From Thermoanaerobaculia bacterium (GTDB taxonomy: Bacteria > Acidobacteriota > Thermoanaerobaculia > Multivoradales > J023): 64,000 bases of DNA. Position 1 is the first letter of the stretch. Each line of letters opens with the position of its first letter. The notes under the pieces are model-generated. The model was not told the origin of the DNA, searched no databases, and saw only the letters and a program-made list of their open reading frames with translations. The stretch is taken from NCBI GenBank assembly GCA_028066595.1, contig JALCBJ010000006.1:1-64000 (forward strand), read 5' to 3'. This document shows, piece after piece, positions 8,086-63,660 of this stretch. Made by a program: the position numbers and the translations under genes.

Positions 8086-9585
8086 ATGCCCAGATTTCGA
8101 CGACGAACCCCTGGGATCGTCACTCTCTTCTTTGTGGCTCTGTTCCCTGTCGCCTTCGCAGGTTGTGGTGGATCGACTCCGACAGATGAGACGCCCGCGG
8201 CGGCCTCGACGGAGACGACCTCCGGAGCGGCGATCTACGCCGCCTACGTGTTGCTCACCGAGGCTCCCGACGGAACGCCGCAGCCGATCGCGCGGGTCAT
8301 CGTCGACGCACCGTCCGCGTGCCCCGCACTCGACGACGGAGCGGGTGGCACGGTGGCTACCACGCCCCGCGACAATCCCCATGGCTTCGAAGTTCTGGTG
8401 TGCGAGGCTCTCGTCCCCTTCGGCCAGTCGTACTCGGTGACCGGATGGGCCAATCCGCTGCCGGCAGCGTCGAAGAGCCCGACGCACCCGGTGATCGTCG
8501 GCGATACCGGCTGCAAGTCCAAAGACTGTGCCGCTGGAACGCCGGCCTCGCCCTTTCAGCTCATCGCCTCTCAGGCAGCGCTGAAGGATCCCGACCTCGT
8601 TCTGCACGCGGGCGACTTCAACTACCGCGGCACCGGAGGCTTCGACTACCAGGGCAATTCGGACTATCCGGAGTACGACGCTGGCGATGTGGACCCAGAC
8701 GATCCACAGTGTCAGCTCGACGACCTCTACGTCAGCCAGAACGCCGGCTACAGCGACCAGCCGGACACCTGGAACAACTGGAACCTCGACTTCTTCGAGC
8801 CCGCGGCCGACCTTCTCGCCCAGGCGCCCTTCGTCGTCACCCGGGGCAACCACGAACTGTGCAGCCGCGCAGGCCCCGGCTGGTTCTACTTCCTCGATCC
8901 CAGCTCGAACCTGAACGGCACCCAGCTGAGCTGTCCCGACCAGGGCGGCGACGCTCCACCACAGGGCGCCGAAGGTCACATCGTCCTCCGTCCGCCGCAG
9001 ACCATCGAGCTCGACACGCTGCGCATCGTGTCCATCGATGCCGCCAACGCGTGCGACGCCTTCGCGCCTGACTTCACCACGGGCCCGTACACCCAGCAGT
9101 TCGTCGACATCTTGTCCGCCATTCCCGACGCGGGGGCCGGCCCCACTACCTGGATTCTCGGCCACCGTCCGACGTGGGCTGCTGACACCAGCACCTCCGC
9201 CATCGCCCAGACGCTGTCCACCGCGTTCAGCCAGGCGCTCGGCCAGCTCGGCCTCGGCGAGCCGCCCGCCGGACTGACATTGATGATCGCCGGGCACATG
9301 CACCAGTTCCAGACCGACACCTTCGACGGAAGCCGTCCACCCCAGTTGGTGGTGGGCAACAGTGGCGTGAAGTCGTCCGGACCCTATCCGTCGAGCAGCT
9401 TCCAACAGACGGTAGACGGCCTCCAAGCCAAGGGCATCGCCTCCATCGAGCACGGCTTCCTCGACATCACGAGTTTCGATCCGCAGACCGGAACCTGGCA
9501 GGCCACGCTCTTCGCGACCGACGGATCGACCGTCATCGCCACCTGCGACTCGTCGGCGCCCGATGGGTCGATCTGCGCCTTCTGA
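8086..9585 (+). CDS. Metallophosphoesterase, predicted lipoprotein
   Basis: The N-terminus is a lipoprotein signal peptide ending in AFAGC with the modified cysteine at C27, so the protein is membrane-anchored outside the cytoplasm. Calcineurin-like metal-binding motifs follow: VIVGDTG and LHAGDFNY, RGNHELC, ILGHRPTW and AGHMHQFQ. These coordinate a di-metal centre for phosphate ester hydrolysis. At 499 residues it is larger than a minimal domain. The substrate is unknown. An A/G-rich RBS (GAGGATAG) precedes the ATG. It is followed by a TPR protein gene on the same strand. Confidence 0.88.
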   Translation: MPRFRRRTPGIVTLFFVALFPVAFAGCGGSTPTDETPAAASTETTSGAAIYAAYVLLTEAPDGTPQPIARVIVDAPSACPALDDGAGGTVATTPRDNPHGFEVLVCEALVPFGQSYSVTGWANPLPAASKSPTHPVIVGDTGCKSKDCAAGTPASPFQLIASQAALKDPDLVLHAGDFNYRGTGGFDYQGNSDYPEYDAGDVDPDDPQCQLDDLYVSQNAGYSDQPDTWNNWNLDFFEPAADLLAQAPFVVTRGNHELCSRAGPGWFYFLDPSSNLNGTQLSCPDQGGDAPPQGAEGHIVLRPPQTIELDTLRIVSIDAANACDAFAPDFTTGPYTQQFVDILSAIPDAGAGPTTWILGHRPTWAADTSTSAIAQTLSTAFSQALGQLGLGEPPAGLTLMIAGHMHQFQTDTFDGSRPPQLVVGNSGVKSSGPYPSSSFQQTVDGLQAKGIASIEHGFLDITSFDPQTGTWQATLFATDGSTVIATCDSSAPDGSICAF

Positions 9586-50875: not shown

Positions 50876-50904
50876 TTGACAGCGTAGAGACCACCTGCTT
50901 TAAT
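50876..50904 (+). promoter_or_regulatory. Consensus sigma-70 promoter of the aro-his-trp operon
   Basis: The -35 box TTGACA (50876-50881) and -10 box TTTAAT (50899-50904) are separated by 17 bases. This is the best promoter match seen in the window. The predicted start near 50911 gives a leader RNA of about 330 nt before aroDE, containing the leader peptide ORF at 50984. Confidence 0.82.
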
Positions 50905-50983
50905 GCCGTCGCTATTCGACCGGCGCAACCTCGCCCATCGACACCAAGCCTCGAACAAGGCCTCTAGACCCGCACTAGCCATC

Positions 50984-51043
50984 ATGCCGACTCGCACCCA
51001 GACTTCCCATTCCTGGTGGCACGGCGTGCATCACGGCGTCTAA
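50984..51043 (+). CDS. Leader peptide with Trp-Trp and four His codons (putative dual attenuator)
   Basis: The frame ATG...TAA encodes MPTRTQTSHSWWHGVHHGV, 19 residues, with adjacent Trp codons 11-12 and His codons at 9, 13, 16 and 17. It lies about 75 nt after the predicted transcription start of an operon that makes histidine and the first tryptophan intermediates, exactly where trp and his leader peptides sit in other bacteria. No clear Shine-Dalgarno sequence is visible before the ATG, which weakens the case. The combined composition is not chance-like. Confidence 0.72.
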   Translation: MPTRTQTSHSWWHGVHHGV

Positions 51044-51150
51044 AAGCTGGGTGCGTCCCGGCTGCTGTGAGACCGGGACGAGGACCAAGGCGAGCCAGCC
51101 TCTTTCCGGATCTCCCTCAGCGGAGACGACGAAAGGGGCTTTCGGCGTTT
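51044..51150 (+). promoter_or_regulatory. Candidate attenuator stems in the his-trp leader RNA
   Basis: Several stems are possible. CGCACCCAG in leader codons 4-6 (50993-51001) is fully complementary to CTGGGTGCG (51047-51055). CGTCCCGG (51054-51061) pairs with CCGGGACG (51073-51080). A terminator-like hairpin at 51124-51150 (CGAAAG-GGG-CTTTCG plus extension) competes with a stem from 51097-51106 to 51131-51140. The first two share only two bases, and the hairpin has a short T-run, so the switching path is not proven. Confidence 0.5.
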
Positions 51151-51237
51151 GGGCCTGCTGCATCCGGCTAGACGAACCGAAGCGTACCTTCCCCGACACC
51201 GTCACCTCTCACCAACAAACTCAGAACGAGACTCGAT

Positions 51238-52749
51238 GTGAAGCGGACATCCCTGGTCGCCACTTTGACCACGCCCCCATCGGACGACGGAGCCGAGCTT
51301 CGCTCCCTGCCCGAGGGGACCGATTGGCTCGAGGTCCGCGCCGACCTGGTCGGGGACTTGGATCCGGCGTGGCTACGCGATCGCTGGAGTGGAGGCCTGA
51401 TCTACACACTGCGGTCGAAGGCCGAGGGAGGGAAGGCAAAGGGCGGACGGGCAGCGCGCCAGCGGCGGTTGTCCGCAGCCGCCGCCGACTACGACCTCGT
51501 CGACCTGGAAGCTGAAAGGGACCGTACCGACGAGATGCTCGGCGCCATCCCCGCCGAACAGCGTCTGATCTCGTGGCACGGCCCATCGACCCACCTCACC
51601 GGGCTCAAGGAACGTTTCGCCGGCCTGGCCAAGACACCGGCGAGGTTCTACAAGATGATCCCCTTTGCCGCGCAGAGCGGTGACGGCATCCGAGCTCTGG
51701 CACTTCTCGACTCCGTACGGCGCGACGATTTCATCTGCTTCGCAGCCGGCGACATCGGGTCCTGGACCCGCATCCTCGCACCGCGCCTCGGTTGCCCGTT
51801 GGTGTACGGCGCATTCGGTGACGAGCCCGGCGCCCCCGGCCAGTGGACAGTCGAGAAGCTGAGCCGCGACTACGGCCTTCCCCATCTGCCAGCCATCGAC
51901 CGGGTCTGCGGCATCGTCGGCAATCCGGTCGTCCATTCCCTGTCGCCTCGGCTGCACAACGGGGCCTATCGGGAGTTGGGAGTCTCGGCGGTCTACGTGG
52001 CGCTCCACGTGGAAGCCTTCGGCGACTTCTGGCTCGAGGTCGTCGAGTCGGGTTCCATGGAGGTCTTGGGTCTACCCCTTCGTGGCCTTTCGGTCACGTC
52101 ACCACACAAAGAAGTGGCACTGGCCGTTTCGGGGGCGTCGAGCCCGAGAGCCCAGCACATCGAGGCCGCCAACACGCTGGTCCGGCATGACGAGGTTTGG
52201 GAGGCCGAGTCCACGGACCCCGACGGCGTGGTGCTGGCCTTGACCAGCGCGGGCGTCGAGCTCGGCGGTCGAAAGGCCGCCGTCGTGGGCTGTGGTGGTG
52301 CCGGCAAAGCGGCTGCTTACGGTCTGCAGTTGGCGGGCGCGAAAGTGACTCTCGTCAATCGCTCGAAAGAACGGGGGAAAAAGGCGTCGATGGAACTGGC
52401 CCTACCCTACCGGCCTCTCGACGAGTTCGATCCCGCGCGCTACGACGTGATCGTCCAGGCGACGGCGCTGGGCCACCTTTCCGACGATCCCCTGGCGTTC
52501 GACCCCGAGAGACTGGCACCCCATGCGGCCGTCCTCGACATGGTCTACGGCTCCGGTCCGACCCGCCTGCTGCAGCGGGTGGAAGAGCTGGGTCGCATCG
52601 CCGTGGAGGGCCGGGAGATGCTGCTCTATCAGGCCCTCGAGCAGTTTCGCTTGATGAACGGGTGCGAGCTCGACGAGAAGTTGGCGCGAGACCTGCTCAG
52701 CATACCGGCTCCGAGCCGCACCAAGGAAACGACGGACGGCACACCATGA
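51238..52749 (+). CDS. aroDE: Bifunctional 3-dehydroquinate dehydratase / shikimate dehydrogenase
   Basis: The 503-residue fusion starts with a type I dehydroquinase (about 1-215): WLEVRADLV, YTLRSKAEGG and the Schiff-base lysine in ARFYKMIPFA. Shikimate dehydrogenase follows (about 221-490), with IVGNPVVHSLSPRLHNGAY, GLSVTSPHKE with the catalytic lysine, and the NADP loop GCGGAGKAA. It converts dehydroquinate to shikimate, feeding chorismate for trpE. The GTG at 51238-51240 is used. First gene of the supraoperon. Confidence 0.96.
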   Translation: MKRTSLVATLTTPPSDDGAELRSLPEGTDWLEVRADLVGDLDPAWLRDRWSGGLIYTLRSKAEGGKAKGGRAARQRRLSAAAADYDLVDLEAERDRTDEMLGAIPAEQRLISWHGPSTHLTGLKERFAGLAKTPARFYKMIPFAAQSGDGIRALALLDSVRRDDFICFAAGDIGSWTRILAPRLGCPLVYGAFGDEPGAPGQWTVEKLSRDYGLPHLPAIDRVCGIVGNPVVHSLSPRLHNGAYRELGVSAVYVALHVEAFGDFWLEVVESGSMEVLGLPLRGLSVTSPHKEVALAVSGASSPRAQHIEAANTLVRHDEVWEAESTDPDGVVLALTSAGVELGGRKAAVVGCGGAGKAAAYGLQLAGAKVTLVNRSKERGKKASMELALPYRPLDEFDPARYDVIVQATALGHLSDDPLAFDPERLAPHAAVLDMVYGSGPTRLLQRVEELGRIAVEGREMLLYQALEQFRLMNGCELDEKLARDLLSIPAPSRTKETTDGTP

Positions 52750-53726
52750 AAGTCACCGCATCACTCCCCACCGGTGTTGCCGCGCTCCTCTTCGACAGTG
52801 CACGCCACCGTCGCCGACTCGAAGGCGAGATGGTGGAAAGCCTGGAGCGAGCCGACTTCACCGAGGTCGTACTGCCCGTGGTGGACTACCTTGAGCCATA
52901 CGACGCGATGCTGTCAGAGACGAGCCGCGCAGAGCTCTACCGTTTCGTCGATCGCGACGGCGCCATGCTCGCCCTGCGCGCCGACTTCACCCCTATGCTG
53001 GCTCGTCTGTTGGCACCACACCTCGACGCCTCGCGTACGGACGACCTGCCGCTAAGGGTGTTCTACCGAGGTGACGTGTTGCGCTACCAAGAGGAGCGCG
53101 CCGGCCGGCAGCGAGAACTCTATCAGCTGGGAGCCGAGATACTCGGCGCCGAGGGTGAGAAAGCCGAAGCCGAAGCCCTACTGCGCTTCCTTGAGCTGCT
53201 GGCGGTGGGTGAGCGGTCGCGATTGACGGTGGTGGTCGGCTTCGCGGGAGCGCTGGACCGACTGCTCATGGACCGTTTCGACGACCGGGCGGAAGCCATT
53301 CGGCTGGTGGATGCCATCGTCCGCCGCGAGCGGCATCCGGCACGGACGGCTGGCGAGGGATTGCTGCAGGTGGTACAGCACGGGGTACCCGACGATCCCG
53401 AGGTTCTCGGCACCGAATCGGCGGCGCATCTCCGGCGTTTGGGCGCATTGCTGGAGGATCTGCAAGCGCGCTTCCCTGCCATCACCCTACGTCTCGACCT
53501 GGCAGAGTTCGCCGATCAGGTGACGACACCCGAGCTCGTAGAGGTGATCGGAGCCCGCGCCTACTACGACGGAGTGGTCTTCCGTGCGTTCACGGATCGG
53601 TCGGCGGAGCCGGTGGGTAACGGCGGCCGCTACGACCGCTTGTTCGAGCGCCTCGGCGCCCGAATCACAGCCTGTGGTTTCAGCTTCAGCCTCGACCGTC
53701 TGGTCGGCAGAGGAAGACCGTCATGA
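52746..53726 (+). CDS. hisZ: ATP phosphoribosyltransferase regulatory subunit
   Basis: 326 residues resembling a class II histidyl-tRNA synthetase core without the anticodon domain: FRVFYRGDVLRYQEERAGRQRELYQLGAEILG matches motif 2 and GNGGRYDRLFERLGARITACGFSFSLDRL matches motif 3. Such proteins form the hetero-octamer with short HisG and bind histidine for feedback inhibition. The ATG overlaps the aroDE stop (ATGA) and the stop overlaps the hisG start. Confidence 0.95.
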   Translation: MKVTASLPTGVAALLFDSARHRRRLEGEMVESLERADFTEVVLPVVDYLEPYDAMLSETSRAELYRFVDRDGAMLALRADFTPMLARLLAPHLDASRTDDLPLRVFYRGDVLRYQEERAGRQRELYQLGAEILGAEGEKAEAEALLRFLELLAVGERSRLTVVVGFAGALDRLLMDRFDDRAEAIRLVDAIVRRERHPARTAGEGLLQVVQHGVPDDPEVLGTESAAHLRRLGALLEDLQARFPAITLRLDLAEFADQVTTPELVEVIGARAYYDGVVFRAFTDRSAEPVGNGGRYDRLFERLGARITACGFSFSLDRLVGRGRPS

Positions 53727-54361
53727 TTCTCGCGTTGCCCAAGGGGCGCAATCTGAAGATCGCTCTGCAGGCTTTTCGGGCTGCCGGGTTGCCCCTCGAC
53801 AGGGTACCGGGCGGCCTCGAGGAGGGCGACCGCAGACTCCGCGTCGACCTGCCGGACGCAGGTTTTCAAATCCTCCTGCTCAAAGACTGGGATGTTCCGC
53901 TTTACGTGGAGTACGGCATCGCCGACGTCGGCATCGTAGGCTCCGACGTGCTGGCGGAGGTAGGTGGCGACGTGCTGGTACCGGCGCGCTTCACCGATGG
54001 CCGTTGCCGGCTGTCGCTGGTCGGACGAAACGAGCTACCCGCGCCCGGCGCACAGGTGCGCCTGGCTTCGAAGTTCACCAACATCGCCCATCAGGTCGTC
54101 GCCGATGAGCCCTGGAACGCCGAGATCTTGAAGCTCTTCGGATCGGTCGAGCTGGGTCCTTTGCTGGAGCTGTCGGAAGTCGCCCTCGACATCGTCCAGA
54201 CCGGCCGCACTCTGAAAGAGAACCACCTACGGGAGCTCAAGGTGGTGCGCGAAGTGGCACCGTTACTACTGGTCCACCGCGCCGCCTTCCAGCGCCATCG
54301 GGAACGTATCAACGACCTGGTGGACGCCTTCGAAGCGGCCGGTGTCGTCGACCTCGACTGA
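53723..54361 (+). CDS. hisG: ATP phosphoribosyltransferase, short form
   Basis: 212 residues, the short HisG lacking the C-terminal regulatory domain, which explains the adjacent hisZ. LALPKGRNL, DVPLYVEYGIADVGIVGSDVL and the PRPP loop ALDIVQTGRTLKENHL are present. It catalyses the first step of histidine synthesis from ATP and PRPP. Coupled by ATGA to hisZ. Confidence 0.97.
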   Translation: MILALPKGRNLKIALQAFRAAGLPLDRVPGGLEEGDRRLRVDLPDAGFQILLLKDWDVPLYVEYGIADVGIVGSDVLAEVGGDVLVPARFTDGRCRLSLVGRNELPAPGAQVRLASKFTNIAHQVVADEPWNAEILKLFGSVELGPLLELSEVALDIVQTGRTLKENHLRELKVVREVAPLLLVHRAAFQRHRERINDLVDAFEAAGVVDLD

Positions 54362-54403
54362 GATCCCCCAACCGCGATTCGATCAACTCCTCGGAGACTC
54401 ACC

Positions 54404-55720
54404 ATGGCACTCTTCTCCATCGTCGATGCCCGCCGCCGGAGCGGCCAGAAGCTCCTCAACCGGCTGGAGAGCCGCAGCGACGGCATCCTCGATCCCAAGG
54501 TCGTGGCCCAGACCGCCAAGATCGTCGATTCGATCCGCCGCGGAGGCGACCGCTCGCTGCTCAAGGCCGTCCGGAAGTTCGACGGCGTGAAGCGTTCCCA
54601 GGTCGTCGATCTGCGGCTACGCCCGGAACGCGCCGATCGCCGCACGTTGCCGGCGGGATTCGAGCACGCGCTCGAACGCGCCATCGTCGCCGTAGAGCGC
54701 TATCACGAAGCGCAGCGTCACCCCTCCATTCGGCTCGAAGAAGCGGGCATCCGCCTGGAGGAGCAGCGGCGGCCCCTACGCCGTGTCGGTGTCTATGTTC
54801 CGGGTGGGCGCGCCACCTATCCATCCTCTGTGGTGATGACGGTGGGTCCGGCCAAGCTAGCCGGCGTCGAGGAGATCGTCGTCGCCACACCTCTGGCCGG
54901 CTGGGAACGTTCGGCATCGCTGCGGCACGCCTTGGAACGTCTCGGCGTTACCGAGGTATGGGCCATGGGTGGTGCCCACGGTGTGGCGGCGCTCGCCTAC
55001 GGCACCGAGACGATCCGCCGCGTCGACAAGATCGTCGGGCCGGGAAATGCCTGGGTCACGGCTGCCAAGCACGTGGTCTCGACCCGCGTCGGAATCGAAG
55101 GGCTGACCGGGCCGAGCGAGGTGGTGATCGTCGCCACGGGTTCGGCCGATCCGTCGTTGGTGGCGGCAGATCTCTTGGCCCAGGCCGAGCACGATCCCCA
55201 GGCTACGACCCTTCTCATCACGGACCAGGCGGCGCTGGCACGGCGCGTGCGCAGTCAGATCAAGACTCAGATCCGGTCCCTCGAAACGGCACCGGTCATC
55301 CGACAGTCGCTACACCTCCACGGTGGAGCCGTCGTCGTGCCCAACTTGGAGACGGCCCTGGAGTGGGTCGAGCGCATCGCTCCTGAGCACCTGCAGCTGG
55401 TAGGGGAAGAGGCCGAGACATTGGCCGACCGCGTGCGGAACGCTGGAGCGGTGTTCGTCGGCGAGGCGACGCCGGTCGCCTTCGGCGACTACCTCGCCGG
55501 CCCCAGCCACTGTCTGCCGACCGGGGGCTCGGCCCGCTATGCCTCGGCCCTGGGGGTGGAAGACTTCGTTCGCCGTAGCCATCTGGTGCAGTTCTCCGCC
55601 ACCGCGGCGGAGCGCTGCGCTCGTGCCACGGCCATCCTTGCCGACGTCGAGGGACTGCCTGCTCACGCCGAAGCAGCACGCCGTCGCAGCGACCTTGCGC
55701 GCGAGGACGGTACCCGATGA
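54404..55720 (+). CDS. hisD: Histidinol dehydrogenase
   Basis: 438 residues. RRVGVYVPGGRATYPSSVVMTVGPAKLAGVEEIV, GPSEVVIVATGSADPSLVAADLLAQAEHDPQA and APEHLQLV carry NAD, zinc and catalytic residues; GPSHCLPTGGSARYASALGVEDFVR is the C-terminal signature. It performs the last two oxidations to histidine. It lies 42 bases after hisG, one of the few gaps in the operon, with GAGGAG-like RBS sequence (CTCGGAGAC). Confidence 0.97.
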   Translation: MALFSIVDARRRSGQKLLNRLESRSDGILDPKVVAQTAKIVDSIRRGGDRSLLKAVRKFDGVKRSQVVDLRLRPERADRRTLPAGFEHALERAIVAVERYHEAQRHPSIRLEEAGIRLEEQRRPLRRVGVYVPGGRATYPSSVVMTVGPAKLAGVEEIVVATPLAGWERSASLRHALERLGVTEVWAMGGAHGVAALAYGTETIRRVDKIVGPGNAWVTAAKHVVSTRVGIEGLTGPSEVVIVATGSADPSLVAADLLAQAEHDPQATTLLITDQAALARRVRSQIKTQIRSLETAPVIRQSLHLHGGAVVVPNLETALEWVERIAPEHLQLVGEEAETLADRVRNAGAVFVGEATPVAFGDYLAGPSHCLPTGGSARYASALGVEDFVRRSHLVQFSATAAERCARATAILADVEGLPAHAEAARRRSDLAREDGTR

Positions 55721-56829
55721 CCCAGCTGTCCGGCACGGCCGGAGGCACCGTCGACCCGACACGCTTGGTCCGCCCCGAGATGCGCGAGCTGGGCATCTAC
55801 CACCTCGACCTATCGCCCTGCCGTCACAAACTGGACCAAAACGAGGTCCCGTACGACCTGCCACGGCGAATGAAGCGGAGGATCGCCGAGCGCTGGATCG
55901 GGCGTTCCTGGGCACAGTACCCCGACTTTCACTGCGACGCGGTACGTGATCTCCTGGCGCGCCACAACGGCTGGAACTTCGAAGGCACGCTGGTGGGCAA
56001 CGGCTCGAACGAGCTCTTGGGTATCGCCATGGAGGCGCTGGCCCGACCGGGCGGCGAGGTCCTGACGATCGCGCCCAGCTTTGGCCTCTACCCGATGTTC
56101 GTGCGACGGGCTGCGGCGATACCGAGGGTGCTGCTCTCGGATGAAGATCTCCGCCTGCCTCTGGCGGCCCTGGAGGCGGAGGTCGAGTCCGACCCGACCC
56201 GACCCGTGATCCTGTGCAGCCCCAACAACCCGACGGGAGATGCCGTCAGCGTGGCTCAGGTGGATCGTCTGTTGTCGAAGATGCAAGGCCCCTTGTTGCT
56301 CGACAATGCTTACGGCGAGTTCAGCGAGCACGACTACCGACTGCTCCTACGCGAGCATCGGCACCTCGTCCTCTTCCGCACCTTCTCAAAGGCCTGGTCC
56401 CTCGGTGGTCTTCGGCTCGGCTACCTTCTCGCCGACCCGGAGCTGGTACATCAGCTGATCAAGGTGAAGCTTCCCTACAACGTCGGTATCGCCCATGGAT
56501 TTGCCGCCGAGGAGGTCCTGCGAAACCCGCGAACGGCCGAGCGGCGCGTCGGCGCCATGCTGGCCCGCCGGCCTCAGTGGCAGGAGATGCTCGAGTCCGT
56601 GGGTCTGACGGTCTTCCCGTCGGAGGCGAACTTCTTCCTCGTTCGGCTGCCACTCGAACATGATGCAGACGTCGTTCGTCGGGGCCTGGAGGTGCGCGGC
56701 ATTCGGGTACGGGACGTATCGAGATACCCCCGCCTTCACGGCTGCTTGCGGGTCTCGGTGGGGAACGGCAGAGCGTTACGCGACGTCGAGGCGGCCCTCC
56801 GAGATGTCTTGAGGCCAGCGGAACGATGA
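55717..56829 (+). CDS. hisC: Histidinol-phosphate aminotransferase
   Basis: 370 residues of the class I/II aminotransferase fold: KLDQNEVPYDLP, NGSNELLGIAMEAL, PNNPTGDAVS, LLLDNAYGEF and the PLP lysine in FRTFSKAWSLGGLRLGYLL. Converts imidazole acetol phosphate to histidinol phosphate with glutamate. Its ATG overlaps the hisD stop. Confidence 0.96.
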   Translation: MTQLSGTAGGTVDPTRLVRPEMRELGIYHLDLSPCRHKLDQNEVPYDLPRRMKRRIAERWIGRSWAQYPDFHCDAVRDLLARHNGWNFEGTLVGNGSNELLGIAMEALARPGGEVLTIAPSFGLYPMFVRRAAAIPRVLLSDEDLRLPLAALEAEVESDPTRPVILCSPNNPTGDAVSVAQVDRLLSKMQGPLLLDNAYGEFSEHDYRLLLREHRHLVLFRTFSKAWSLGGLRLGYLLADPELVHQLIKVKLPYNVGIAHGFAAEEVLRNPRTAERRVGAMLARRPQWQEMLESVGLTVFPSEANFFLVRLPLEHDADVVRRGLEVRGIRVRDVSRYPRLHGCLRVSVGNGRALRDVEAALRDVLRPAER

Positions 56830-56947
56830 ACACGGAAGCGACGCATTCCTCCCGCGGTACCGATCGCGACCGCGTACCGCGGAGACGTCGAGTGAAGAAC
56901 AGGAACAGCAGAACCATGGGAATCCAACTCGAGACGGAGGATCGGTA
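56830..56947 (+). promoter_or_regulatory. Gap between hisC and hisB with a 9-bp hairpin
   Basis: The only sizeable interruption of the supraoperon. CCGCGGTAC (56852-56860) and GTACCGCGG (56874-56882) form a perfect stem with a 13-base loop. There is no T-run, so an mRNA-processing, pausing or stabilising element is more likely than termination. A good RBS (GGAGG, 56936-56940) precedes hisB. Confidence 0.5.
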
Positions 56948-57562
56948 ATGCCTACCCACCGAGGGAACCGGGTCGGACGCGTCGAGCGAGCCACAAAAGA
57001 AACGTCGATTCGCGTACAGCTGGATCTGGATGGCGGTGAGCGGACGATCGACGTACCCGACGGCTTCTTCGCCCACATGTTGGACGCCTTGACGACCCAC
57101 GGCGGTCTGGGGATCGATCTCGAGGCCCGGGGCGACACCCACGTCGACCTCCATCACACGGTCGAGGACGTAGGGATTGCGATGGGTGACGCTCTCGTTG
57201 AGGCTCTGGGTCAGCGACGGGGCATCGTCCGTTTCGCCAGCGCATATACGCCGCTCGACGAGGCCCTCTCCCGCGCGGTCGTCGACGTGTCCGGTCGTGG
57301 TTTCTTTTCGTGGCACATTCCCGAGGAGCTGCGACATGTCTGGGTGACCCGCGAATTCCCACTCGACCTGGTCGCAGACTTCTTCCAGGCATTCGCCGAT
57401 CGCGGCCGTTTCTGCCTACACCTCGACGTGCTCCGCGCCCGCAACGGTCACCACGCCGCCGAGGCCTCGTTCAAGGCGGTGGCAGTGGCCCTTCGTCAGG
57501 CTCTCACCGTCCGCCCCGAGCTGGACGACGTACCGTCGACCAAAGGGACGCTGACCGCATGA
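56948..57562 (+). CDS. hisB: Imidazoleglycerol-phosphate dehydratase
   Basis: 204 residues, monofunctional. The metal-binding motifs are FFAHMLDALTTHGG, VDLHHTVEDVGI and GHHAAEASFKAVAVALRQA, which coordinate the manganese pair. It lacks the HAD-type histidinol-phosphatase part found in fused HisB, and no other phosphatase gene is in the operon. Its stop overlaps hisH (ATGA). Confidence 0.97.
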   Translation: MPTHRGNRVGRVERATKETSIRVQLDLDGGERTIDVPDGFFAHMLDALTTHGGLGIDLEARGDTHVDLHHTVEDVGIAMGDALVEALGQRRGIVRFASAYTPLDEALSRAVVDVSGRGFFSWHIPEELRHVWVTREFPLDLVADFFQAFADRGRFCLHLDVLRARNGHHAAEASFKAVAVALRQALTVRPELDDVPSTKGTLTA

Positions 57563-58221
57563 AGACCGAGGCCACGAACCGACCGCCGGTCGCCGTCATC
57601 GACGCCGGAGTCGGAAACTTGGGCAACCTCTTTCGCGCTCTGCGCCACGTCGGAGCCGATCCAGAGCTGACCACCGATCCGGCGACCGTAGAACGTTCGA
57701 CCACGATCGTCCTTCCCGGGGTCGGAGCGTTCCGGCCACCGCGAGAACGTATGCGAGGAGGGCTCGAACGGGCGCTCCGATCAGCACTCGACAGCGGCGC
57801 CCATCTCTTGGGCATCTGTATCGGCTATCAGCTGCTCTTCGACTCAAGCACGGAGTTCGGCACCACCGACGGATTGGGGCTGCTTCCAGGCCGCATCGAT
57901 CGTTTGCCCGAGAGCGTCGCGCTCCCTCAGATCGGTTGGAATCGTCTCGTACGTAGGGCCGATCATCCGCTCTTATCCGGCATTCCGGACGGCGAGAACG
58001 AAGGACTGTTCTACTTCGTCCACAGCTATGCGCCCTACGACGTGCCGGAGACGGTCCGACTGGCGGAGGCGGTTCATGGTGGGGCCTTCGTGGCGGTGGC
58101 AGGCCGCGGCAGGGTCTACGGTACCCAGTTCCACCCCGAGAAGAGCGGACCCAACGGATTGCGCCTGCTGCGCAACTTCCTCGACCTCGCCGAGAACCGA
58201 GCTGCGGTATGCCCGAACTGA
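57559..58221 (+). CDS. hisH: Imidazole glycerol phosphate synthase, glutaminase subunit
   Basis: 220 residues, class I glutamine amidotransferase: VAVIDAGVGNLGNL, the nucleophile cysteine in LLGICIGYQLLF, and the catalytic His/Glu in YGTQFHPEKSG. It supplies ammonia to HisF. The ATG at 57559-57561 is used, coupled to hisB; its end overlaps hisA by 13 bases. Confidence 0.97.
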   Translation: MKTEATNRPPVAVIDAGVGNLGNLFRALRHVGADPELTTDPATVERSTTIVLPGVGAFRPPRERMRGGLERALRSALDSGAHLLGICIGYQLLFDSSTEFGTTDGLGLLPGRIDRLPESVALPQIGWNRLVRRADHPLLSGIPDGENEGLFYFVHSYAPYDVPETVRLAEAVHGGAFVAVAGRGRVYGTQFHPEKSGPNGLRLLRNFLDLAENRAAVCPN

Positions 58222-58937
58222 TACCTGCCATCGACCTGCGTCAGGGCCGCGTGGTGCGCCTGGAGAAAGGCGACGACGCGCGGCGAAAGGCCTACGACCG
58301 AGATCCGAAGGAGCTCCTGACGCGATTCGCTGAGGTCGGCGTCCGGCGTGTGCACATAGTCGATCTCGACGCCGCGTTCGGCGAAACGCCACAGCGCGCC
58401 CTGCTGGAGGAGCTCGCTCGGTTCACACCTGTCGCACTCGAGGTCGGGGGCGGATTCCGCACCGACACAGACGTGAGCTGGGGTCTCGACGCCGGACTCG
58501 ATCGGATCGTCATGGGCTCGGTGGTGGCCAAAGACACCGACGGATTCCTCGCCATGGTCCGATCTTTTCCGGGACGGCTGGTACCAGCCATCGAAACCGC
58601 AGGGGGTGAGGTCAAGATCGGCGGCTGGACAGAGAAGGCAGCGCTCGGTCTCGAAGATCTCTGCTCCCGCCTGCAGGGCGCCGATTGCCCGGCGGTCCTG
58701 GTCACCGACGTAGAGAAAGACGGCATGCTGCAGGGACCGAACCTGGGACTGGCGGAGCGCGTGGCCCGGGCGACCGGCATCCCGGCCATCCTCTCGGGTG
58801 GCGTCCGGGACCTGGAAGATCTCCGCCGAGCGGCAGAAAGTCCTCACCTCTCGGCCGTCATCGTCGGCAAGGCTTACTACGAAGGCCACCTGGATCTCTG
58901 GGAAGCGATCGAGATCCTACCCGGAGGTTTGAAATGA
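58209..58937 (+). CDS. hisA: ProFAR isomerase
   Basis: 242 residues, (beta/alpha)8 barrel: [19 protein letters not shown] with the catalytic aspartate, [36 protein letters not shown] and [13 protein letters not shown]. It isomerises ProFAR to PRFAR. Its start lies inside the end of hisH; its stop overlaps hisF (ATGA). Confidence 0.97.
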
Positions 58938-59770
58938 GCGCGCGATCCGGACCCGAACGCCGCGGCGAAAGTGGACTCGTGTTCCGCGTCATCCCATGCC
59001 TCGACGTGAAGGACGGACGCGTGGTCAAGGGCATCCAGTTTCAAGATCTGCGGGATCTGGGAGATCCAGCGGAAAGTGCCGCGCGGTATGCCTCCGAGGG
59101 TGCGGACGAGATCGTCTTTCTCGACATCACGGCGGCACCCGAGTCCCGCGAGACCGATCTGGATTGGGTGCGTCGCACGGCCGAGACGGTCTTTGTTCCC
59201 CTGACCGTGGGCGGAGGGGTCCGCAGACCGGAAGACGCCGAAAGACTGCTGCGATCTGGCGCCGACAAGGTGGCCACCAACACTGCGGCATTGGAAGATC
59301 CCAAACTACTCACCGAGCTGGCCGAGCGTTTCGGTAGCCAGTGCGTGGTGCTTTCGGTCGACGCCAAACGCCTTCCCGGAGACGGGCCTCCGAGGTGGGA
59401 CGTCGTCACCCACGGAGGCCGTAAAGCCCGGGGCATCGACGCCTTGGAGTGGATCGAGCGCGGCATCGCACACGGAGCCGGTGAGATCCTGCTCACCTCG
59501 ATCGACGCCGATGGCACGAAAGACGGCTACGATCTGGACCTCTTGCATGCGGTGGCGGAACGCGTCACCGTTCCCGTCATCGCGTCGGGCGGGGCCGGAA
59601 CCCTCGAGCACCTGGTCGACGGTCTCCGGTCCGGCGCCTCCGCGGTACTCGCAGCCTCGATCTTCCACGAGGGAACCCATCGCATCGACGACGTGAAGCG
59701 TGCCCTGGCCGAGCGCGGCTTCGCCATGCGACTGGAATCTGGCCGCGTGCCTTCGGGGAGCTCGGCATGA
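58934..59770 (+). CDS. hisF: Imidazole glycerol phosphate synthase, cyclase subunit
   Basis: 278 residues with [42 protein letters not shown] and [19 protein letters not shown] with the second catalytic aspartate. The coupled ATG at 58934 gives an 18-residue charged extension before the barrel; a GTG at 58979 would remove it. Acts with HisH. Confidence 0.96.
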
Positions 59771-60453
59771 TCGATCCGGCCGAGCTCAAATACGACGACA
59801 GAGGCCTGTTGCCGGTGGTCGTCCAGGATGTGGCAACCGGCGCAGTCCTCATGGTCGCCTGGGCCAACGCGGAGGCCGTCCGTCGCACGCTCGAGTCCGC
59901 CGACGGTTGGTTCTGGAGTCGGTCGCGGCAGGAGTTGTGGCGTAAAGGCGCGACGTCGGGCCACGTCCTGCGAGTGCAAGAAGTGGCCGCGGACTGTGAT
60001 GGCGACACCCTTCTGTACCGGGTCCATCCAGCCGGACCGGCCTGCCACCTGGGGACTCGCACCTGCTTCGACTCCGAATCTCCTGAGCCGGACTCCCGCA
60101 ACGGCTTCGAGAACCCGGCACGATTGGAGTTGGGCTGGCTGGCCGAGATCCTCGACGCACGCCGTGCTGCGGCCACGCCGGAATCCTCGTATACCGCGCG
60201 CTTGTTGGCGGCCGGCACACCGCGTATCGCCCAAAAGGTCGCCGAAGAGGCTGCGGAAGCTGCGATCGGCGCCGTCGTGCACAGTCAGGATGAGACGGCC
60301 GAAGCTCGTTCGGAGCTGGTGGGCGAGGCGGCCGATCTCCTCTATCACCTCAGCGTCCTCCTCCTCGATCGCGGCATCGACCTGCGGGACGTCGCCGAGC
60401 GCCTGGCCGAGCGACATCGATCCCGACTTCCCGAGAGTGAGCAGAGATCATGA
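59767..60453 (+). CDS. hisIE: Bifunctional PRA-CH / PRA-PH
   Basis: 228 residues. The N-terminal HisI part (about 1-120) has [24 protein letters not shown] and [25 protein letters not shown] with zinc-binding cysteines. The C-terminal HisE part (about 140-225) has [13 protein letters not shown] and [13 protein letters not shown]. It performs steps two and three of the pathway. Coupled to hisF and trpE by ATGA overlaps. Confidence 0.97.
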
Positions 60454-61925
60454 CGGAAACGAAAAAAGCAGCCGTCCACGTCAGGGAGCTCCTGGCCGAC
60501 AGCCTGACGCCACTGGCGGTCTACCGTCGCCTGGCCAAGCTGTCGAAAGTCCGGTTCCTGCTGGAGAGCGTCTCCGGAGGGGAGCAGGTTTCCAGGTTCA
60601 GCTTTCTCGGCACCAAACCGCGAGAGATCTACCGCCTGTGGCCGGATCGGCTCGAAGTCACTCGGAGCTCGGATCCCGGCAAGGGCTCCGCTCATACCAC
60701 GGAGGTCTTACCCGGCGAGCCCCTCGACGCCTTGCGCCGCGAGCTCCGCCGGGTGCGATCCGAGCCTGGGCCCATTCCGTTCACGGGTGGTCTCGTCGGC
60801 TTCTTCGGCTTCGATCTGGTACGCATGATCGAACATCTGCCAAACCGACCACCGGACCATTTCGGGCTGCCGATCGCAGCGTTCGGCCGCTTCGACACAG
60901 TGGTCGTCTTCGACCATGCACGTCAACGCGTCCTGGCCATCGCCAACGAGATCGAGGACGAGGTCTCGATGGCGGAAGCCGAGGATTCGCTGCGCCAACT
61001 GTCGGAGATCCTGACGTCCGACGGTGGCACCCGCGCCGTGGCCATGCCGGTAGACCAGCAATACGAAACGGCGCCCACGAGCCGAGTGTCCATGTCCGGG
61101 CCCGAGTATCGGGCCGCCGTCGAGAAAGCCAAGGAGTACATCCGCGCTGGCGACATCTTCCAAGTGGTGATCGGACGGCGCTGGACCGTACCGCAGGCCC
61201 CCGGACCGCTCGCGCTGTACAGAGCGTTGCGCATGGTGAATCCCAGTCCCTACATGGTTCTGCTGGAGCTACCTGATGCCGCTCTGGTGGGCGCCTCGCC
61301 GGAGATGTTGGTGCGCAAGGCTGGCTTGCGGGTGGAGAACCGACCGATCGCCGGCACCCGCCCTCGCGGCGTGGACGAGGAAGGTGACAGAAGACTGGCG
61401 GAGGACCTGTTGAGTGATGCCAAGGAGCGGGCCGAGCATGTGATGCTGGTCGACCTGGGCCGCAACGACGTCGGCAAAGTGGCGGCGCCGGGCACGGTGA
61501 AGGTGTCGAGCTTCATGGAAGTCGAGCACTACAGCCACGTGATGCATCTGGTATCGAGTGTGGTGGGAGATCTCGACCTCGGCAGAGACGGTCTCGACGC
61601 CCTCCTAGCCTGCTTCCCGGCGGGGACCCTGTCGGGAGCGCCCAAGATCCGCGCTTTGGAGATCATCGACGAGCTCGAACCGGAGGCCCGCGGTCCCTAC
61701 GGCGGAGCGGTGGGATACTTCAGCTACTCCGGCGACGTCGACACCTGCATCACGATCCGCACCCTGGTGGTCAAAGACGGCGAGACGTCGGTCTCCGCTG
61801 GCGCCGGTCTCGTCGCCGACTCCGATCCCGCCGCGGAGGAACGAGAAACCGAGAACAAAGCCGCCGGTCTCCTGGCCGCTGTGTCGCTGGCGCAGCAGCT
61901 GGAAGCCGCGGAAAGGGTCCCATGA
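60450..61925 (+). CDS. trpE: Anthranilate synthase component I
   Basis: 491 residues with the chorismate-binding fold: RAGDIFQVVIGRRW, GASPEMLVRK, PIAGTRPRG, HVMLVDLGRNDVGKV, HLVSSVVGDL and SGAPKIRALEIIDELEPEARGPYGGAVGYF. The feedback-inhibition segment LLESV is near residue 38, as in Trp-sensitive enzymes. It converts chorismate plus ammonia to anthranilate. Coupled to hisIE, placing Trp synthesis under the same promoter as His synthesis. Confidence 0.97.
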   Translation: MTETKKAAVHVRELLADSLTPLAVYRRLAKLSKVRFLLESVSGGEQVSRFSFLGTKPREIYRLWPDRLEVTRSSDPGKGSAHTTEVLPGEPLDALRRELRRVRSEPGPIPFTGGLVGFFGFDLVRMIEHLPNRPPDHFGLPIAAFGRFDTVVVFDHARQRVLAIANEIEDEVSMAEAEDSLRQLSEILTSDGGTRAVAMPVDQQYETAPTSRVSMSGPEYRAAVEKAKEYIRAGDIFQVVIGRRWTVPQAPGPLALYRALRMVNPSPYMVLLELPDAALVGASPEMLVRKAGLRVENRPIAGTRPRGVDEEGDRRLAEDLLSDAKERAEHVMLVDLGRNDVGKVAAPGTVKVSSFMEVEHYSHVMHLVSSVVGDLDLGRDGLDALLACFPAGTLSGAPKIRALEIIDELEPEARGPYGGAVGYFSYSGDVDTCITIRTLVVKDGETSVSAGAGLVADSDPAAEERETENKAAGLLAAVSLAQQLEAAERVP

Positions 61926-62629
61926 TTCTCCTCATCGACAACTACGACTCCTTCACCTATAACTTGGTCCAACTCCTGAGGGAGGCAGGCGCCGAGGTGG
62001 AGGTCGTGCGCAACGACGCGATCGAGCCTGCCGAGGTCGCAGCACGCGCCGCTCGGGCAGAGCTCCGGGGTGTCGTGCTATCGCCCGGCCCGGGGCGCCC
62101 CGAGAACGCCGGCATGTGTCCGGCCCTCTTCGCTGCCCGACCCGATCTGCCGATCCTGGGGGTCTGCTTGGGTCACCAATGCCTCGGCCATGCCTGGGGC
62201 GCCATGGTCGAACGTGCCCCCAAACTGATGCACGGAAAGACGTCGATGGTGCGCTACCAGGACGACCCACTCTTCGAGGGTCTGCAGAATCCTTTCCAGG
62301 CCACCCGGTACCATAGCTTGGCCGTGCGCGACGGCTCGCTCCCAGCGGAGCTGAAGCCCATCGCATGGTGTGCTGATCCGGCAACGGAAGGAGGGGACGA
62401 AGGGACCGTGATGGCACTCCGCCACCGTGAGCTGCCGTATTGGGGCGTTCAATTTCACCCGGAGTCGGTCCTCACCCATGCCGGCGTCCACATGCTGCGG
62501 AACTTCCTGCGCATCTGTGGCATCGCCGTTTCCGAAGAACCACCTCAACCGTTGGTCGATGAAGCGCACCTCGAGGCGGTCATGGCAGCTATCACCGAGG
62601 CCGACCTGAGCTCTGCAGAACATCCCTGA
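61922..62629 (+). CDS. trpG: Anthranilate synthase component II
   Basis: 235 residues, class I amidotransferase: LLIDNYDSFTYNLVQLL, VLSPGPGRPENAG, nucleophile cysteine in LGVCLGHQCLGHAWG, and GVQFHPESVLT. It channels ammonia to TrpE. Coupled by ATGA to trpE and 17 bases before trpD. Confidence 0.97.
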   Translation: MILLIDNYDSFTYNLVQLLREAGAEVEVVRNDAIEPAEVAARAARAELRGVVLSPGPGRPENAGMCPALFAARPDLPILGVCLGHQCLGHAWGAMVERAPKLMHGKTSMVRYQDDPLFEGLQNPFQATRYHSLAVRDGSLPAELKPIAWCADPATEGGDEGTVMALRHRELPYWGVQFHPESVLTHAGVHMLRNFLRICGIAVSEEPPQPLVDEAHLEAVMAAITEADLSSAEHP

Positions 62630-62646
62630 GAAGATCCGGAGATCCC

Positions 62647-63660
62647 ATGAGTCGAAACGAGAACGCTGAGCTCCAGGACATCCTCGCCGGACGCGACCTC
62701 TCCCGGGAGGTCACGCAGGCACTGTTCGGCCGCTTGATGGACGGCGAGCTCAGCGACGTAGTGAAGTCGGCCCTCCTGGTGGGCTTGGCGATGAAGGGTG
62801 AGGCCGCCTCCGAGATCGCCGGAGCGGCGTCGGCCATGCGAAAACGGGTGCTGACCATTCCCCATACGGTGGCCAAGGTCGTGGACACCTGCGGCACCGG
62901 CGGAGACGGCAAAGGAACGTTCAACATCTCGACAGCGGCGGCTTTGGTAGCCGCTGCGGCAGGGGTACCTGTAGCGAAACATGGCAACCGATCGGTCAGC
63001 TCCAAGTCGGGCTCGGCCGACGTCCTCGCCGAGTTGGGTGTACGCATCGACCTGACACCCGACGAAGCAGGCCGCTGTCTGCATGCCGTGGGGATCGCAT
63101 TTCTCTTCGCGCCCAAGCTGCATCCGGCGATGAAGGAGGTCATGCCGGTACGCAGAGAGCTCGGAGTACGCACCATCTTCAACGTGCTCGGCCCGCTGAC
63201 CAATCCGGCGGGAGCTCAGCGGCAGGTGGTGGGCGTCTTCGCACAGCACCTCGTCGACACTGTCGCCGATGTGCTCGCCGAGCTGGGTTCAGAGCACGCC
63301 TTCGTGGTCCATGGCTCCGACGGTCTCGACGAAATCACGCTCACCGGCCCCACACGTATCGCCGAAGTACGCCGGGGTGAGGTGCGCACCTACGAAATCG
63401 GTCCGGGCGACCTGGGTCTGGATGTCTGCCAACCCGCGGACTTGGCAGGAGGCACGCCGCAAGAAAACGCCGAGGCGATGCGCCGCGTACTGGGCGGTGA
63501 AGAGGGCCCCCTACTCGACATCACCGCCGCCAACGCCGGCGCAGCCATGGTGGCGGGAGGACTGGTCATGGACCTTGCGGAAGCTGTCGAAGCCGCCCGT
63601 GAGGTCATCCTCTCCGGTCTCGCGCAGGCGAAGCTGGAGGAACTCGCGGCCTGGTCCTGA
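62647..63660 (+). CDS. trpD: Anthranilate phosphoribosyltransferase
   Basis: 337 residues: VVDTCGTGGDGKGTFNISTAAALVAAAAGVPVAKHGNRSVSSKSGSADVLAELG carries the PRPP loop and the KHGNR motif, and FNVLGPLTNPA follows. It transfers phosphoribosyl from PRPP to anthranilate. Last gene of the supraoperon; trpCFBA are not in the window. Confidence 0.97.
   Translation: MSRNENAELQDILAGRDLSREVTQALFGRLMDGELSDVVKSALLVGLAMKGEAASEIAGAASAMRKRVLTIPHTVAKVVDTCGTGGDGKGTFNISTAAALVAAAAGVPVAKHGNRSVSSKSGSADVLAELGVRIDLTPDEAGRCLHAVGIAFLFAPKLHPAMKEVMPVRRELGVRTIFNVLGPLTNPAGAQRQVVGVFAQHLVDTVADVLAELGSEHAFVVHGSDGLDEITLTGPTRIAEVRRGEVRTYEIGPGDLGLDVCQPADLAGGTPQENAEAMRRVLGGEEGPLLDITAANAGAAMVAGGLVMDLAEAVEAAREVILSGLAQAKLEELAAWS

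Follow-up and report, generated by a model that had tools for sequence, protein, structure and literature searches.

Attenuators reading a single amino acid are textbook knowledge, and in thrL (Thr and Ile) and in ilvL/ilvB (Ile, Val and Leu) a single leader peptide combines codons of two or more amino acids. Runs of one amino acid, described in an earlier note on this DNA for the known trp and his leader peptides, are therefore too strong a rule for leader peptides in general, since the thr and ilv leaders mix. The amino acids of these mixed leaders share one branched pathway, while at the locus described here two separate pathways are joined by operon fusion. In the aro-trp-his supraoperon of Bacillus subtilis, aromatic, trp and his genes are likewise placed under attenuation, the TRAP-controlled trp leader containing about 11 (G/U)AG repeats and the system including the gene mtrB, but TRAP is a Trp-activated protein acting on these repeats and there is no leader peptide with His codons. 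TRAP control is described in PMC4027176 and ilvB leaders are treated in PMC1262725.

The trp attenuators of Escherichia coli (trpL), Corynebacterium and Streptomyces (PMC1262725) share Trp-Trp in the leader peptide and a terminator ahead of the trp genes with the present locus, where however His codons are added, the operon starts with aroDE and his genes, and the segment layout differs. Likeness to the hisL attenuator of E. coli and Salmonella is found in the run of His near the leader stop, in several alternately pairing segments and in an extra hairpin before the terminator, which in the his attenuator is thought to lower basal read-through (PMC1183508). In its RNA the locus is closer to this multi-segment his attenuator than to the trp attenuator with its four segments, but the leader differs from hisL in having two amino acids, no Rfam match, a host in a different phylum and an ORF without a Shine-Dalgarno (SD) sequence.

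A survey from 2010 listed almost no predicted attenuator with an assigned function in Acidobacteria; earlier leader-peptide systems were known to it only from the Proteobacteria and Actinobacteria, and it added one in the Firmicutes itself (PMC2965389). Neither a Trp+His leader nor a described leader-peptide attenuator in Acidobacteriota was found in the literature, though Lopatovskaya and others (2010), cited in PMC4833913, may hold Acidobacteria cases. What is new here is the combination of Trp and His, followed through natural operon fusions and splits.

The leader ORF in the window and in related genomes

The window, i.e. the whole stretch of 64,000 nt that was analysed, comes from contig C55 of a 7.5-Mb draft genome of the Acidobacteriota, class Thermoanaerobaculia. 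It contains a promoter, TTGACA-N17-TTTAAT (50876–50904; all features are on the forward strand), with the -35 box at 50876–50881, a spacer of 17 nt and the -10 box at 50899–50904; a similar promoter was scored in 46 of 52 leaders. Downstream lies an ORF of 19 codons, MPTRTQTSHSWWHGVHHGV* (50984–51043), running from an ATG at 50984 to a TAA at 51041–51043. Trp occupies codons 11–12 (TGG TGG, 51014–51019) and His codons 9, 13, 16 and 17, the last three forming the putative regulatory His codons CAC..CATCAC (51020–51034) and the first being an extra His codon at 51008–51010. Behind the leader follow aroDE (51238–52749), identified by Pfam and NCBIfam as a type I dehydroquinase - shikimate dehydrogenase, and according to the gene annotation hisZ, hisG, hisD, hisC, hisB, hisH, hisA, hisF and hisIE (52758–60453) and trpE, trpG and trpD (60450–63660). 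The promoter, the ORF with Trp-Trp and four His codons and the aroDE-his-trp genes had all been proposed in the earlier note and were confirmed.

The same genome harbours trpC, trpF and a trpB-like ORF on another contig (C51, L234; 2953–5700), before which no leader of the Trp+His type was found; in the relative G006, as an example, trpC and trpF come after trpD, unlike in the window genome. A simple promoter/terminator scan of the window reported no element at the leader, because the -10 box lacks the A at position 2 and the T tract of the terminator is broken. Searches with Rfam gave no His or Trp leader family in the window at E up to 5, no family at the gathering threshold in nine relatives and no match to the T-box model in either; a single match to CRISPR-DR29 inside aroDE was below threshold.

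For the comparison with relatives, 66 of the 72 genomes in the order proved to have aroDE; regions no longer than 19 kb were extracted and their genes mapped by tblastn. Scanning contigs with a single protein gave no relatives while an alignment query did. The relatives share a layout of a TTGACA promoter, a small ORF ending with Trp and then His codons, five RNA segments and an intrinsic terminator. Their leaders end in WWHGVHHGV*, WWHGVHHHGR*, WAWRTHHHHAVS or WWAHGHGKG, and at the same place are found GWWWHGVHHFGS (G006), GWWHGVHHHGR (G002), GWWHGVHHHGDF (G039), WAWRTHHHHAVS (G069) and GWWLRVHHHTT (G064). Among about 20 species of one genus the end is nearly always WWAHGHGKG, and in genus g23 HGH replaces the adjacent His codons. 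Absence of the ORF or of its Trp and His codons from related genomes had been named beforehand as an outcome that would refute the idea of a leader, and both are present. Within one genus pN/pS is about 0.36 for the leader ORF and 0.16 for its last 14 codons.

The lack of an SD sequence before the ATG, correctly noted earlier as a weak point, turned out to be a trait of the family, seen in 44 of 49 leaders. In nine leaders (G007–G013, G065 and G067) the ATG is situated only 6–11 nt past the -10 hexamer, and the mRNA therefore probably starts at or just before the leader ATG in these nine. Together with the almost complete absence of SD sequences this position suggests a regulatory peptide that may be translated leaderless.

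The leader is not bound to aroDE. In G003, G004 and G005 aroDE is located several kb upstream of hisZ with no leader in front of it, and the leader (SSWWYGVHHHGI, CGWWHGLHHHGI) stands before hisZ. In G034 his-trp is on a different contig from aroDE and the leader is again found with his-trp. Because the leader accompanies his-trp wherever aroDE is separate, its assignment to the his-trp genes rather than to aroDE is supported by the arrangement of the genes.

Alternative pairing of the RNA segments

Directly after the stop codon is segment B (AGCTGGG, 51045–51051), which pairs with C according to covariation in 32 sequences. It is followed by segment C (CGTCCCGGCT, 51054–51063), pairing with B or D as judged by covariation and folding, and segment D (CCGGGACGAGG, 51073–51083), pairing with C or E according to covariation and containing a nearly invariant CCGGG.CG. 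Segment E (GCCTCTTTCCGG, 51098–51109; covariation and folding) is the 5' arm of the terminator, and segment F (GAAAGGGGC) is its 3' arm, followed by a weak T tract (TTTCGGCGTTT; both within 51131–51150; sequence, covariation and folding). Across the leaders the segments read GCCGGG (B), GTCCCGGC (C), CCGGGACGAGG (D), CCTCCTTCCGG (E) and CCGGAAGGAGG-TTTT (F), and the intrinsic terminator of the relatives has the form CCTCCTTCCGG...CCGGAAGGAGGTTTT.

Two mutually exclusive schemes can be drawn from these segments, C:D with E:F, giving the terminator, and B:C with D:E, disarming it. In the 32 sequences 90.6% of the cells are paired in the terminator state with 9 pairs changed on both sides, and 88.5% in the alternative with 8 such pairs; on covariation score both schemes lie above every one of 500 shuffles and every slid control. 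The mutually exclusive stems, listed as merely possible in the earlier note, are accordingly conserved in relatives with paired changes.

For a covariance model blind to the regulatory codons, only the RNA surrounding the stop codon and downstream of it was used. The model matches 53 of the 72 genomes of the order, normally with one strong match each, and also finds genomes outside the training, e.g. G014, G065 and G067; the match in the window (51039–51144; 47.7 bits, E 9e-7) is to a sequence of the training set. Outside the class, a phylum-wide search yielded weak matches only; the five inspected (G219, G444, G175, G260 and G419) lack a matching leader ORF and appear to be chance hits. Weak matches within the class in G084, G127, G109, G105, G117, G093 and G130 are also without a matching leader.

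Seen alone, the window could be taken for a chance ORF with chance hairpins upstream of a biosynthetic operon, as the fold of its whole leader is not unusual against shuffles (z -0.95), and the structure was for this reason tested by comparison. No ATG ORF having WW and HH, or at least two W and four H, in its last 16 codons arose in 20,000 dinucleotide shuffles of 50905–51237, and one such ORF arose when any start codon was allowed. With the same type of ORF and RNA occurring in 53 genomes, chance is already refuted by the relatives and practically no credence is left to it.

When the ribosome is set on the stop codon, thereby covering B, the C:D and E:F hairpins are predicted in nearly all leaders. 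With B free, B:C and D:E are dominant at equilibrium in at most about a dozen of 51 leaders (the form is seen in e.g. G010, G040, G038 and G034), and C:D remains favoured in genus g23 and in the window. Antitermination must consequently be kinetic or use other pairings, and B:C with D:E as the actual antiterminator is an inference supported by covariation, not a result.

A different step could also be imagined, with the leader acting on translation of the first gene or on Rho-dependent termination instead of intrinsic termination, and would agree with the lack of SD in most leaders and with T tracts that are weak in the window, G003, G004 and G005. The absence of a long T-run had been pointed out earlier and holds for the window genome, but many relatives have TTTT or longer, and in most relatives a strong hairpin with a T tract behind it is conserved, in many genomes well upstream of the start of the first gene and not on it. 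Regulation at another step is for these reasons given very little credence.

The reading held here, with strong though not complete confidence, is a transcription attenuator of the classical ribosome-mediated kind whose single leader peptide reads two amino acids; translation, stalling and read-through are inferred, and there are no expression data from these uncultured organisms. RNA polymerase would start at the TTGACA promoter and a ribosome would translate the leader ORF. A ribosome reaching the stop codon would cover B, so that C:D and E:F could pair and transcription would terminate before the operon. The distance fits, since a ribosome covers up to about 12 nt past the stop codon (PMC4833913) and B lies within this reach. 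If Trp or His is short the ribosome would stall at the Trp codons or, further on, at the His codons, leaving B free to pair with C; D:E would then form, the terminator would not, and aro-his-trp would be transcribed. The predicted outcome is an OR gate for the fused operon, usually with Trp first and His second.

Leader codons and the content of the operon

The ORF ending at each match of the covariance model was read and compared with the content of the downstream operon, which is unresolved for 12 leaders, as MAG contigs limit some of the operon calls. All 32 leaders in front of verified his-trp operons contain at least one Trp and at least two His codons, while none of the four in front of his operons without trp genes, distributed over three families, has a Trp codon. 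These His-only leaders are VVVHHHPVI (G071), LVHHHKMT (G035), GVHHHHGMS (G036) and RRGGMHHRHGP (G001), the first three with three to four His codons and no Trp. In G035 and G036 hisZGDCBHA stands alone behind the leader with hisF-hisIE-trpE at another place, and in G001 RRGG is found at the position of WWHG in its relatives. G001 as an exception, i.e. a his leader without Trp, was rejected; its hisIE-trpE cluster is preceded not by hisF but by an unrelated gene, peptidase-like by eye; a position of trp behind hisZGD is thus not demonstrated, and the genome conforms to the rule. In G071 (L041; contig C14 near 8420–8530) Val-Val-Val (GTC GTC GTG) occupies the Trp-Trp position beside HHH, possibly a trace of the decay of Trp codons after trp left the operon.

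The reverse is seen in five genomes lacking hisD, where Trp is kept and adjacent His codons are missing: VWWCVRSRS (G024), GWWWLSHIHWTGV (G067, directly upstream of trpE), CWRGRAQHRLS (G011), WRSHVHLLGA (G007) and CWWRRAHIHAG (G012). Of 15 genera that have his genes downstream of the leader, 14 show adjacent His codons, versus none of four genera among the hisD-less genomes. Fisher tests by genus gave p 0.0095 for Trp and 0.0013 for the His runs, and 1/560 (by hand) for Trp when the genus of G001 is counted as a third split; the genera are not fully independent, though the splits fall in different families. In family f3 of the order (G015–G032) most genomes are without hisD and have aroDE-trp operons, and most have no recognisable leader.

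It could be argued that the attenuator reads only His or only Trp, the other codons being historical passengers, and single-amino-acid attenuators do exist in the same class (His-only at L160 in G080, Trp-only in G075), so the ancestor may have sensed one. Passenger codons would however not follow gene content, whereas the Trp codons are absent in three families exactly where the operon is without trp, and genomes without hisD lack the adjacent His codons; we find this explanation very improbable. The earlier note had matched the Trp and His codons with the two end products of the operon, and across the relatives they do co-vary with the downstream trp and his genes. Judged from these sequence comparisons, a shortage of Trp or of His is very probably sensed by a single RNA switch. 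The idea that joint control stems from a HisA/TrpF enzyme common to both pathways (PriA type) was rejected, trpF being present in 66 of the 72 genomes.

Related leaders in the class Thermoanaerobaculia

Weak matches to the model before amino acid operons revealed similar attenuators in a second group of families within the class, with a His leader HAWHHQHHHVM in front of hisZ (G080), a Trp leader LWWWRSRC in front of an aroD-like gene (G075), WW leaders in front of aroDE-trpE operons (G086 and G077) and Tyr/Phe leaders (e.g. RYAYYYGYFT) in front of chorismate mutase and DAHP synthase, these genes being established only where checked. Covariation of the D:E pairing was not significant in this group (12 sequences). 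Tyr/Phe-rich leaders with the same RNA layout, e.g. MNHTAPRYAYYYGYFT, were seen at L150 (G080), L148 (G088), L152 (G089), L153 (G081), L146 (G072) and L151 (G083), and since G080 has both a Tyr/Phe and a His leader, paralogous attenuators coexist in one genome. In G077 (L143, 2977–4272) the histidyl-tRNA synthetase gene hisS lies inside the aroDE-trp operon and the leader ends in YYGWWHYRS; at the corresponding place G090 (L144) has a HisZ/HisS-like gene of unresolved type.

A class-wide module in Thermoanaerobaculia appears likely, with a conserved RNA switch and with codons at the end of the leader peptide that are rewritten as operons fuse or split. Depending on the downstream genes it would read His, Trp, Tyr/Phe or Trp+His, and in aro-his-trp it would be a two-input OR gate. 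An operon whose two end products are unrelated would then be controlled by a single regulatory RNA. The three families without trp in the operon, where the Trp codons are gone, and the several his-less genomes, where the His run is gone, constitute natural replicates and make the evolution of regulatory codons directly testable. The leader is a candidate two-input sensor and, if this is true, its sensitivity to the two amino acids may differ because the Trp codons usually precede the His codons.
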